A DNA stretch of 64,000 nt, taken from Thermaerobacter subterraneus DSM 13965 (lineage in GTDB: Bacteria > Bacillota > Sulfobacillia > Thermaerobacterales > Thermaerobacteraceae). Shown here piece by piece: positions 48,090 to 52,034 of the stretch. Below the pieces are notes generated by a model. The model made no database searches. It was not told the origin of the DNA and saw nothing but the letters and a program-made list of their open reading frames with translations. The position numbers and the translations under genes are program-made. The DNA is taken from NCBI RefSeq assembly GCF_000183545.2, contig NZ_JH976535.1, forward strand, positions 1,985,837-2,049,836, written 5' to 3'. Positions within the stretch are counted from its first letter, which is position 1. Each line of letters starts with the position of its first letter.

Positions 48090-48218
48090 GTGGAAGACCA
48101 CAAGCAAGGCGCCGGCAACGGGGCCGGCGCCACGGCCATTAAGTACGGGGCCTGGATCATCATGCTGCTGGCCGTGCTCTATTTTCTGGCCAACTACGTG
48201 ATTCCCCTATTCCGGTAA
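48090..48218 (+). CDS. Small single-pass membrane protein, 42 residues
   Basis: GTG at 48090 to TAA 48216-48218 encodes a 42-residue peptide. A Gly/Ala-rich, slightly charged head (VEDHKQGAGNGAGATAIKYG) leads to one hydrophobic helix (AWIIMLLAVLYFLANYVIPLF) and ends in Arg. A CGAGGTGG ribosome site lies six bases upstream. The membrane-like run in a region of otherwise lower order supports a real gene. It resembles small membrane proteins of unknown function; it could be an accessory subunit or a regulator. It stands alone between an enoyl-CoA hydratase and the converging serA. The 195 bases before it contain a short CTTTCG/CGAAAG repeat. Confidence 0.6.
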   Translation: MEDHKQGAGNGAGATAIKYGAWIIMLLAVLYFLANYVIPLFR

Positions 48219-48358: not shown

Positions 48359-50098
48359 TCAACCCGCCCGCTCCCTCCACACCTGGGCCAATGCGGCTCC
48401 GGGGACCGGCGGGGCATTGGGCTCGTCGCGGCCGGATCCGCCCTTGACACCCCCGTCCGCCCCCTCGCTCGAAAGCCAACGGGATGCGGGCTGCAGCAAC
48501 GTCACCGGCACATGCACCAGCCGCGCCTCCTCCATACCGGGCAACCGGCGGATCTCCGCCAGCAGGGACGGGGGCAAAGGATCGTCCAGGGCCAGGACCA
48601 TGATGGCCTCGCCCCGCACCTGCCGCCGGGCCACCTGCATGGCCGCGATGTTGATCTCCCCCATGCCCAGCAGGCCGCCCACCTTGCCGATCATGCCCGG
48701 CCGGTCGTGATGCCGTGTGAGCAGCAGCCGGGGCGCCGGCACCATGTCCAGGGGCAGCCCGTCCAGGTGGACCAGCCGCGGCAGCCCTTCGGGGCTCAGG
48801 CTCCCGGCCACCGCCCGCCGCGGCCCCCGGCCGCCGGCCAGTTCCACCACCGGGACCGGCAGGTCGGGGTGGCGCTCGCTGCGCCAGCGCAGGGTGATGC
48901 CGCGCCGGGCCGCCAGCACCGCGGCGTTGACGGCGTTCACCGGGCCGTCCACCACCCCGGCCAGCAGGCCCTTGAGAACGGCCCCCGCCAGCAGCTCGAA
49001 GCCCCGCTCCGAGGGCAGGTCCCGGGCCGCCACCCGCAGCTCCAAATCCTCCAGCGGGCCGCCCAGCCCCTCGCGGTAGACCAGGCCCACCAGCTCCGCC
49101 ACCGGCGCCAGGGGCCCGGCCGCGTGCCAGTCCTGATCCGACAGGGGCGGCAGGTTGACGGCGCCCCGCACCGGCTGGCCCTGCAGGGCGCGCAGCACCT
49201 GCTCGGCGATGGCCCGGGCATTGTAGGCCTGGGCTTCCCGGGTCGAACCGCCCAGGTGGGGCGTGGCCACCACGTTGGGCAGCTCCAGCAGGGGGCTTTC
49301 CCCCGGCGGCTCGGTGGCGAACACATCCAGCCCCGCCCCTGCCAGGCGGCCCTCGGTCAGGGCCTGGTAGAGGGCCTGTTCGTCCACGATGCCGCCGCGG
49401 GCGGTGTGGATGAGATAGGCCCCCGGGCGCATGCGGGCCAGGGCCTCGGCATCGATGAGGTGGCGGGTGGCCGGGGTGAGGGGCGTGTGGACGCTGACCA
49501 CGTCGGCCCGGGCCAAGAGGTCGTCCAGGGAGACGGGCTCGGCGCCCAGCTCCCGGATGCGGGCCTCGGGCACGTAGGGATCATAGGCCAGCACGACCAT
49601 GCCGAAGGCCCGGGCCCGCTGGGCCACCTCCTGGCCGATGCGCCCGAAGCCCACCAGCCCCATCACCTTGCCGCGCAGTTCCTCCCCGACGAACCGGTTC
49701 CTCTCCCAGCGCCCCTGGCGCAGGGAGGCGGCGGCCGGCACGAGCCGCCGGACCAGGGCAAGCAGCAGGGCGAAGACGTGCTCGGCGACGGCCACGGTGT
49801 TGCCGTCGGCCACGTTGACCACCACGATGCCCCGCTCGGTGGCCGCCTCCAGGTCGATGTTGTCGACCCCCACCCCCGCCCGGCCGATCACCCGCAGCCG
49901 GGGCGCCGCGGCGATGAGGTCCGCGGTCACCTTGACCCGGCTGCGCACGATCAGGGCGTCGGCGGCGGGCAGGAGATCCCGCTTCAGGGTCTCGAGGTTC
50001 GCCCCCGCGGCGTCGATGAGATGGCAGTGCTCTTCCAGCAGGGTCAGGCCGTCCCGGGGCAAGGGATCGGCCACCACCACCCTGGGCCTCGGGTTCAT
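48359..50098 (-). CDS. serA: D-3-phosphoglycerate dehydrogenase
   Basis: A 579-residue long-form (type I) SerA that oxidises 3-phosphoglycerate, the first step of serine synthesis. The NAD loop is VGFGRIGQEVAQRA. The catalytic Arg, Glu and His are in IGRAGVGVDNID/TARGGIVDE, LDVFATEPP and TPHLGGSTREAQ. The intervening ASB domain (about 320-455) and a C-terminal ACT domain (HHDRPGMIGKVGGLLG) follow, the latter giving serine feedback. The last 40 residues are extra. The ATG at 50098 overlaps the aminotransferase stop (ATGA), and both genes follow a serine-specific T-box leader. Confidence 0.95.
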   Translation of the reverse strand: MNPRPRVVVADPLPRDGLTLLEEHCHLIDAAGANLETLKRDLLPAADALIVRSRVKVTADLIAAAPRLRVIGRAGVGVDNIDLEAATERGIVVVNVADGNTVAVAEHVFALLLALVRRLVPAAASLRQGRWERNRFVGEELRGKVMGLVGFGRIGQEVAQRARAFGMVVLAYDPYVPEARIRELGAEPVSLDDLLARADVVSVHTPLTPATRHLIDAEALARMRPGAYLIHTARGGIVDEQALYQALTEGRLAGAGLDVFATEPPGESPLLELPNVVATPHLGGSTREAQAYNARAIAEQVLRALQGQPVRGAVNLPPLSDQDWHAAGPLAPVAELVGLVYREGLGGPLEDLELRVAARDLPSERGFELLAGAVLKGLLAGVVDGPVNAVNAAVLAARRGITLRWRSERHPDLPVPVVELAGGRGPRRAVAGSLSPEGLPRLVHLDGLPLDMVPAPRLLLTRHHDRPGMIGKVGGLLGMGEINIAAMQVARRQVRGEAIMVLALDDPLPPSLLAEIRRLPGMEEARLVHVPVTLLQPASRWLSSEGADGGVKGGSGRDEPNAPPVPGAALAQVWRERAG

Positions 50099-51522
50099 GC
50101 GCCCCCCTCCTCCCCCGCAACCTGGGCCCAGGCCGCCCGGGCGGCGGCCGCCGCGGCACCGGGCGGCACCGGCCGGCCGGCTTCCGCCAGCATGGGCCCC
50201 AGCACGGCGTCCAGGGCCGTCATGGCCGCCAGGATGTCGGCCGGCTCCAGGGCACCCATGTGGCCGATGCGGAAGGCCCGGTCCTTGAGGGGTCCCTGGG
50301 CGCTGACCACCACCACGCCGTGGTCGTCCGCCAGGCGGCGGATCACCTCTCCGGGCCGCACCCCGGCGGGCAGCGGCACCGCCGTCACCGTGGGAGAGGC
50401 CTCCTCGTCCCGGGCCAGGGGCTCCAGCCCCAGGGCCCGCACCCCCGCCCGCACCATGGCGGAGAGCAGCCGGTGCCGGCGGTAGACGTTCTCCTCCCCT
50501 TCGGCGGCGATCCGCTCCAGGGCCGCCTGCAGCCCGAACCAGAGGGTCACCGCCGGGGTGTAGGGGAAGTCGCCCTCGCCCGCCAGGTAGGGCCGCACGT
50601 CCCAGGTGAACCGGGGCAGCCGGGCCTGTTCCACCGCCTCCAGGGCCCGGGGCCCCAGGGCCACGATGCCCAGGCCGGGCGGCGTCATCAGCGCCTTCTG
50701 GGACCCCGTCACCGCCACGTCGATGCCCCACGCGTCCATGGCCACGGGGACCGCGGCAAAGGAGCTCACCATGTCGACCAGCACCAGCGCCTCGGGCGCC
50801 GCCCGGCGGATGGCGGGCACCAGCTGCTCCAGCGGCAGGAGCGCCCCGGTGGAGGTCTCCGAGTGGGTGAGGAACACGGCCCGGTACGGCCGGCCCGCCC
50901 CGCGACCCGCGGCCTCCAGCCGCTCCAGCACCTGTTCGGTCCGGGGGATCTGGCCCCAGGGCACCTCCAGGCGGTCGACCTCCAGGCCGTAGGCTTCGGC
51001 GACGGCGGCAAAGCGATCGCCGAAGAGGCCCATCACCACCGCCAGCACCCGGTCGCCCGGCGACAGGGTGTTGACCACCGCCGCCTCCAACGCCCCCGTC
51101 CCCGAGCAGGGGAACACCACCACGCGGCCGCTGGTGCGGAACAGCCGCCGCAGTCCTTCCCGCACGGCGGCGCTGACCCGGTCGAACTCGGCACTGCGGT
51201 GCAGCACCACCTGGCGGGCACAGGCCGCCCGCACCTCCTGGGGCACGGCGGTGGGGCCCGGCGACAGGAACACCGGCTCCGGGCGCGCCGGCGCCCCGGG
51301 TGCCGGCGCCTGGGCGGTTCCCAGGGGGGTGCCGGATCCCGGACCGGACGGGGAGGCGGCGTCAAACCCAGGACCCGGTGCCATGCCGGCTCCCTGGGCA
51401 ATTGGGGTCTCGGGGTGGATACCCGAACCCGCGCCCCTGCCCGCACCGGCTGCCAGGGGCGATCCGGCCGCTGCACCGTGACGGCCGGCGACGCCGGGTC
51501 CGATCTCCAGCGGCTGCTGCAT
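50095..51522 (-). CDS. Class V aminotransferase, probable serine-pathway enzyme
   Basis: A 475-residue PLP aminotransferase of the alanine/serine-glyoxylate group (PucG/AgxT-like). After about 80 low-complexity residues come VFLSPGPTAVPQEVRAA, VVLHRSAEF, FPCSGTGALEAAVVN, LVDMVSSFAAVPVAMDAWG and the PLP lysine in TGSQKALMTPPGLGI. Enzymes of this type paired with serA act as phosphoserine or serine-pyruvate transaminases in organisms without classic serC. The ATG at 51522 is set by GGAGGAGGGA. It is the first gene behind a serine T-box and overlaps serA by four bases, so a role in serine synthesis is a good inference. Confidence 0.88.
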   Translation of the reverse strand: MQQPLEIGPGVAGRHGAAAGSPLAAGAGRGAGSGIHPETPIAQGAGMAPGPGFDAASPSGPGSGTPLGTAQAPAPGAPARPEPVFLSPGPTAVPQEVRAACARQVVLHRSAEFDRVSAAVREGLRRLFRTSGRVVVFPCSGTGALEAAVVNTLSPGDRVLAVVMGLFGDRFAAVAEAYGLEVDRLEVPWGQIPRTEQVLERLEAAGRGAGRPYRAVFLTHSETSTGALLPLEQLVPAIRRAAPEALVLVDMVSSFAAVPVAMDAWGIDVAVTGSQKALMTPPGLGIVALGPRALEAVEQARLPRFTWDVRPYLAGEGDFPYTPAVTLWFGLQAALERIAAEGEENVYRRHRLLSAMVRAGVRALGLEPLARDEEASPTVTAVPLPAGVRPGEVIRRLADDHGVVVVSAQGPLKDRAFRIGHMGALEPADILAAMTALDAVLGPMLAEAGRPVPPGAAAAAARAAWAQVAGEEGGA

Positions 51523-51597
51523 GGCGGCTCCCTCCTCCAGGGGGTCTGGCTGCTCCTGACCGATGGCCATGCACCGGGCAAGGCCCCATGGGGTCCA

Positions 51598-51634
51598 CGA
51601 AAACAAAAGAACCCGTCCCCTCCGGGACGGGTTC
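51598..51634 (-). terminator. T-box intrinsic terminator
   Basis: On the minus strand GAACCCGTCCC (51634-51624) pairs with GGGACGGGTTC around a GGAG loop, followed by TTTTGTTTT. It directly follows the T-box sequence, and the left arm is shared with the competing antiterminator. Confidence 0.92.
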
Positions 51635-51998
51635 TCACCCGCGGTGCCACCCCGCTTGACCTCACCCCGATTGCCCGCCGGCGGCGCGCCGGCTCCCCCG
51701 CGTCCGCTGGCCCTCCGTCGCACGCCCACCAGCAGCAGCGCCTCGCGGCGTCGCGCGGAGGTTCCCGTCCCGCGGGAGTACGGAACCAAACCCACGGCGG
51801 CTCTACCGGGGTGAAGCCCGCTTCAGGCCGTTAACGGCGGCCGGCCGGGCCCCTTCCGGTCCGGGCGGACCCTCGGGGCCACCTCCGGGGTGGATTCCCC
51901 TGCCCGCCCCACCGGCTCGCACCATCCGCCGGCTCTCTGGCGGCAGCGTCAGCAGGGTACTAGCCCCTTCAACGGCGCCTCGACCATCGTTCAGGTTT
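51598..51998 (-). ncRNA. Serine-specific T-box leader
   Basis: The minus strand has the whole T-box plan. In stem I, CUAGUACCCUGC pairs with GCAGGGGAAUCCACCCC, leaving a specifier loop with the loop-E AGUA on one side and GAA-UCC-A on the other. UCC (51894-51892) is a serine codon. The distal AGAGAGCCGG and GGUGCGAGCCGG elements are present. The T-box GGTGGCACCGCGG follows (about 51651-51639); its UGGC pairs with an acceptor end GCCA, which fits the G discriminator of tRNA-Ser. Uncharged tRNA-Ser would stabilise the antiterminator and let the downstream serine genes be read. Confidence 0.93.
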
Positions 51999-52005
51999 GG
52001 GCGGG

Positions 52006-52034
52006 ATTCTAGCACAGGCGCCCCGGCCAGGCAA
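52006..52034 (-). promoter_or_regulatory. Promoter of the serine T-box operon
   Basis: On the minus strand TTGCCT (52034-52029), a 17-base spacer and TAGAAT (52011-52006) give a good sigma-A promoter. The start near 51999 matches the 5' end of the T-box leader. Confidence 0.7.

Follow-up and report, generated by a model that had tools for sequence, protein, structure and literature searches.

Which amino acid is sensed by the RNA leader upstream of a class V aminotransferase gene and serA in Thermaerobacter subterraneus DSM 13965, and what reaction does that aminotransferase carry out? Both genes lie on a 64,000-nucleotide (nt) stretch of contig NZ_JH976535.1 (positions 1,985,837 to 2,049,836), the whole of which is referred to here as the window. 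We consider it very likely that a serine-specific T-box governs an operon encoding SerA together with an AGXT-type aminotransferase that is not a SerC and that is predicted to act as a phosphoserine aminotransferase. A separate, unexpected arrangement, a tRNA gene nested in the T-box leader of leuS elsewhere in the genome, emerged from a search of the genome for T-boxes.

The serine leader and its operon

The transcription unit is complete on the minus strand and runs from 52034 down to 48108, with a promoter, a T-box leader, two genes and a terminator-like hairpin (Table 1). A search of 4.2 kb found just this one promoter-like site, compared with 0.1 expected from shuffled sequences. An earlier note on this DNA had described a T-box leader with AGUA opposite GAA-UCC-A in the specifier loop, a UGGC T-box, and a terminator sharing bases with the antiterminator. 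Each of these elements was recovered: the Rfam covariance model RF00230 matched both Stem I and the T-box region, its alignment returned the same UCC specifier, and the terminator and antiterminator have 13 nt in common. The leader has the features by which a T-box is recognized, namely, a Stem I with a specifier loop of the form AGUA/GAA-NNN-A and a UGGN antiterminator in competition with an intrinsic terminator. When the hairpins were folded in isolation, the terminator reached -25.9 kcal/mol versus -14.8 kcal/mol for the antiterminator stretch, as required of a switch that is off by default. The whole leader folded into a structure mildly more stable than those of shuffled sequences (z of -2.26), which is unsurprising given its G+C content, and we base the T-box assignment on homology and covariation, not on whole-leader folding.

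A purpose-built covariance model of Stem I, constructed from 16 leaders and run on 28 related leader loci, found the element in 24 of them. Covariation within Stem I was far above both controls: paired cells made up 95.5%, changes on both sides were seen in 14 of 15 pairs, and none of 500 shuffles equaled the result. RF00230 itself matched 11 leaders of relatives, all 10 of those with a printed alignment carrying a UCC specifier, and two relatives exceeded the Rfam gathering score (L064, 98.3 bits; L074, 97.8 bits).

The tRNA genes of the genome bear on specificity. ARAGORN identified tRNA-Ser genes with the anticodons GGA, CGA, GCU, and UGA. The discriminator base is G in all four (computed for three and read by eye for the GCU gene), A in all three tRNA-Pro genes, and U in the tRNA-Gly(GCC) examined, so that the UGGC T-box fits tRNA-Ser. 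The serine specificity claimed previously, which had been argued from UGGC and the G discriminator of tRNA-Ser, was thus borne out: a UCC specifier and a UGGC T-box occur in a genome that encodes a tRNA-Ser(GGA) with discriminator G. As an internal control, a second leader in the same genome, upstream of a gene that we take from its sequence to be serS, also contains GAA-UCC and UGGC.

These features suggest a transcriptional riboswitch that would sense tRNA-Ser(GGA) and respond to serine starvation. At the specifier loop, UCC would base pair with the anticodon GGA, and the UGGC bulge would bind the GCCA end left free when tRNA-Ser is uncharged. The antiterminator would thereby be stabilized, and RNA polymerase would read through the terminator into the two-gene operon, while a charged tRNA would be unable to pair at UGGC and the terminator would form. 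The operon structure that had been claimed stands, with the start of serA (50098) overlapping the aminotransferase stop (50095) by 4 nt; the hairpin downstream of serA is probably the end of the operon.

Table 1. Coordinates of the features of the serine operon (window positions) and of the leuS leader elsewhere in the genome
Feature	Position	Strand	Basis or remark
Sigma-70-like promoter, TTGCCT-17-TAGAAT, extended -10 TG	52006..52034	-	Core kept in three congeners
T-box Stem I	51882..51975	-	RF00230, 53.1 bits, E 1.3e-10, model 7-103; covariation in relatives
AGUA of specifier loop	51961-51958	-	
GAA-UCC-A of specifier loop, opposite AGUA	51897-51891	-	
Specifier codon UCC (Ser)	51892..51894	-	Covariance-model alignment; invariant in four congeners
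Expanded Stem III, long structured loop	51658..51819	-	5' strand ~51819-51806, 3' strand ~51670-51658
105-nt insertion in Stem III loop	51686..51790	-	Alignment; absent from closest congener (G002)
T-box UGGC, predicted partner of tRNA-Ser NCCA end (discriminator G)	51646..51649	-	
T-box/antiterminator region	51624..51652	-	RF00230, 21.4 bits, E 0.019, model 188-215
Intrinsic terminator, 13 bp	51607..51636	-	51636-51624 (13 nt) common to antiterminator
Class V (AGXT-type) aminotransferase, predicted phosphoserine aminotransferase	50095..51522	-	His-Arg at residues 108-109
serA, 3-phosphoglycerate dehydrogenase with ACT domain	48359..50098	-	TIGR01327; PF02826, PF00389, PF01842
Terminator-like hairpin after serA	48108..48131	-	
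leuS T-box leader with nested tRNA-Ala(GGC) (outside the window)	L001:1501-1800 = G000:C1:311375-311674	+	Own-genome T-box search

The aminotransferase and the phosphoserine step

The aminotransferase passes the PF00266 (Aminotran_5) cutoff (88.6 versus 21.5 bits) but no NCBIfam cutoff; the genome has 9 class V matches. Its predicted fold is already given by solved relatives, among which a profile search ranked 6pk1 and 2dr1 first. With the SerC model TIGR01364 it scored 21.7 bits versus a cutoff of 443.6 and is not a member of that family. As for a separate serC, none of 31 genomes (this one and 30 relatives) contains a protein over the TIGR01364 cutoff, and 12 of the 31 have a weak match; at E values up to 10, the sole match in the T. 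subterraneus genome was the enzyme of the serine operon, with 22.5 bits. TIGR01364 was the model used genome wide, and other serC models were run against the window protein only. The N-terminal ~80 residues of the enzyme (51522-51283, minus strand) form a Pro/Gly/Ala-rich extension that is common to the closest congener and unalignable in most relatives.

Two adjacent residues connect the enzyme to SerC. All 13 serA-linked aminotransferases that were aligned have H108 and R109, and hhalign places this pair on H41-R42 of Escherichia coli SerC, which we take to be contacts of the substrate phosphate. The His-Arg pair was absent from all 10 unlinked paralogues (L076-L083, L087, and L088) and from a paralogue in T. 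subterraneus itself (L017). It is also present in 2dr1 and 1iug, and other residues occupy this place in the AGT-type structures 4cbs and 1vjo.

Linkage to serA was followed in a search of 31 genomes, in which a T-box core was found at 12 of 14 aminotransferase loci with an adjacent serA versus 0 of 13 without one; loci L084 to L086 gave no aminotransferase match and were dropped from these counts. L063 begins at a contig end, and no T-box was seen at L067. At the level of the phylum, where matches with E values of 1e-60 or lower came from 94 of 119 genomes, we took the best-scoring new loci, a nonrandom sample of 27 that includes two near copies (L257 and L258). serA lies directly downstream in all 27, the His-Arg pair is present in all 27, and 23 have a T-box core (UGGC in 22).

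The proposal in the earlier note that the aminotransferase serves serine synthesis, probably in place of SerC, is supported by the serine T-box, the serA linkage, the His-Arg pair, and the lack of a SerC. SerA would convert 3-phosphoglycerate to 3-phosphohydroxypyruvate, from which the class V enzyme would form phosphoserine. We infer the latter step, since its basis is regulation, linkage, and the His-Arg motif and since the enzyme's best relative of solved structure is a serine-glyoxylate aminotransferase.

Several results count against this assignment. The best NCBIfam model for the enzyme is that of the aspartate-glyoxylate aminotransferase BhcA (NF045640; 315 versus a cutoff of 650), and of the solved chains, serine-glyoxylate aminotransferase 6pk1 comes closest, followed by 1iug and 2dr1. 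At two loci (L069 and L070), the His-Arg pair is present without serA in the stretch examined. No SerB over the cutoff was found in the genome (best score, 33.8 versus 144.15 bits). A histidine phosphatase encoded elsewhere in the genome (L103), its sole PF00300 match, may complete the serine pathway as a candidate SerB replacement, and the margin by which it resembles phosphoserine phosphatase 4ij5 (101.1 bits) over other phosphatases (93.4) is small. With regard to the leader, a search of the whole window at the RF00230 gathering score returned no matches; both pieces came from an E-value search by region and score below 93, an annotation threshold that is no feature of the RNA and that was missed because ~230 nt separate the Stem I and T-box parts. 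Finally, the specifier position, read from the covariance alignment in 24 wider relatives, is UCC in 16, AGC in 2, and GGC, a glycine codon, in 6 (L245, L247, L248, L250, L253, and L260), the T-box of these six still being UGGC; the tally leaves out an additional, weak Stem I match in L245 (15.6 bits, E value of 0.44). In one genome with such a GGC leader (G042), the discriminator is U in tRNA-Gly and G in tRNA-Ser, so neither a glycine nor a serine reading satisfies both contacts.

The strongest competing explanation accepts the serine T-box and has the aminotransferase make serine directly from hydroxypyruvate, or shuttle amino groups among serine, alanine, and glyoxylate, in a nonphosphorylated route with SerA acting on glycerate. 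We regard it as unlikely. The serine-glyoxylate and serine-pyruvate type of the nearest solved structures and the absence of a SerB over the cutoff would be in keeping with such a route, but SerA passes the 3-phosphoglycerate dehydrogenase cutoff of TIGR01327 (558.2 versus 454 bits) and fails the glyoxylate reductase model. In addition, the serA-linked enzymes keep the SerC-like His-Arg pair where the AGT-type structures 4cbs and 1vjo differ, and a histidine phosphatase nearest to 4ij5 is present. If the aminotransferase does form phosphoserine, then a tRNA-sensing leader can reveal what a class V enzyme with poor annotation does, and the combination of a serine T-box, serA linkage, and a SerC-like His-Arg pair would single out one AGXT-type family as phosphoserine aminotransferases in a group whose 31 genomes yielded no protein over the SerC model cutoff.

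Stem III insertions in the serine and leuS leaders

The serine leader carries a 105-nt insertion in the Stem III loop that its closest congener, whose aminotransferase is 96% identical, does not have. The leaders of two other congeners (G001 and G003) have loop expansions of their own. A search of the T. subterraneus genome with the insert gave short GC-rich matches only and did not support an origin from a genomic repeat. One could suppose that the insertion has broken the leader in this species and that what remains is a decayed T-box, as its absence from the closest congener and the splitting of the Rfam match in two by the long leader might suggest. We think this very improbable, given that the specifier and T-box, and almost the whole of Stem I, the terminator, and the promoter, are unchanged across four congeners, that the Stem III arms can still pair, and that loop expansions occur in other congeners too. 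There is even less reason to suppose that the leader senses another amino acid, such as proline through a one-base shift of the specifier to CCA: the specifier register does come from an alignment, but UGGC pairs with the discriminator G of tRNA-Ser and is incompatible with the A of tRNA-Pro, on which ground a proline specifier was rejected, the serS leader has the identical triplet, and UCC or AGC is found in 18 of the 24 wider relatives.

Two leaders of relatives depart from the common form. At L073, two T-box cores (positions 1276 and 1378), 102 nt apart, precede a single aminotransferase-serA operon and are possible tandem antiterminators. At L074 (position 1377), the specifier is UCC and the T-box is UGGU, not UGGC.

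Outside the window, a T-box leader with a CUC specifier (87.4 bits) precedes a gene that we take from its sequence to be leuS, and the loop of its Stem III contains a complete tRNA-Ala(GGC) gene. This is the sole Ala(GGC) gene among the tRNA matches in the genome, 45 of 46 of which had their anticodon read. In 14 of 31 relatives, a match spans both the Stem I side and the tRNA, and a pattern scan of a genome collection gave at least 80 loci. The following counts apply among the matches listed (80 loci). A tRNA lies right before the T-box in 50, and in 48 of these 50 it is tRNA-Ala(GGC). A Stem I match (E values up to 0.1) accompanies 47 of the 48, and the specifier, read by eye, is CUC (Leu) in all 47 printed tails; an automated pattern typed only 27 of these. 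In 55 of 56 loci, leuS has the same orientation, and in 48 it lies no more than 900 nt away. The flanks of the nested tRNA pair with each other at a mean of -11.2 kcal/mol versus -7.2 kcal/mol for mismatched partners, the true partners being better in 40 of 56. By record titles, the loci with a nested tRNA-Ala(GGC) belong to the Bacillota/Firmicutes, Chloroflexi, Coprothermobacterota, Caldisericota, Armatimonadetes, and Actinomycetota, among others.

We lean toward the view that T-box leaders of this lineage have an insertion port in Stem III, occupied by the 105-nt insert in the serine leader and by the tRNA-Ala gene in the leuS leader. The leuS leader would then double as a tRNA-Ala precursor even when transcription is terminated, and processing of the nested tRNA would couple the supply of alanine tRNA to leucine sensing. 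Our literature searches found no description of a tRNA gene nested in a T-box leader. If true experimentally, tRNA-Ala inside Stem III of leuS leaders would be a more surprising result than the serine switch.

Comparison with known systems

The type of switch is already known, since serine T-boxes with a UCC specifier on serine genes have been published. According to PMC8002221, a Ser(AGC) T-box of Paenibacillus polymyxa serA was demonstrated by mutation and reporter assays, and Ser(UCC) T-boxes are predicted on serC of Clostridium thermocellum and Desulfitobacterium hafniense. The window specifier is the codon reported there for the two serC leaders and differs from the AGC of the P. polymyxa serA leader. 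Passages of PMC2494555, PMC3766115, and PMC7778990 also underlie this placement. For the combination of this aminotransferase, serA, and a T-box, our searches, outside which most subscription papers lay, found no paper.

With the AGXT-type class V aminotransferases (6pk1, 2dr1, 1iug, and BhcA), the window enzyme shares the pyridoxal phosphate lysine motif and an alignment over ~350 to 380 residues; unlike them, it is linked to serA under a serine T-box. Compared with SerC (TIGR01364), it probably catalyzes the same reaction, with the His-Arg pair aligned by hhalign, but falls outside the SerC family. In the Methanococcales, a class V enzyme other than SerC makes phosphoserine. That enzyme is archaeal and has no T-box; the window enzyme would resemble it in being a class V phosphoserine aminotransferase outside SerC. 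The leader resembles the serine-specific members of RF00230, found upstream of serS, serA, and serC, in its Stem I, specifier, UGGN sequence, terminator/antiterminator pair, serine specificity, and association with serine synthesis genes. It differs from the known serine T-boxes in that it precedes a two-gene aminotransferase-serA operon, in that the aminotransferase is not a SerC, and in its long Stem III insertion.

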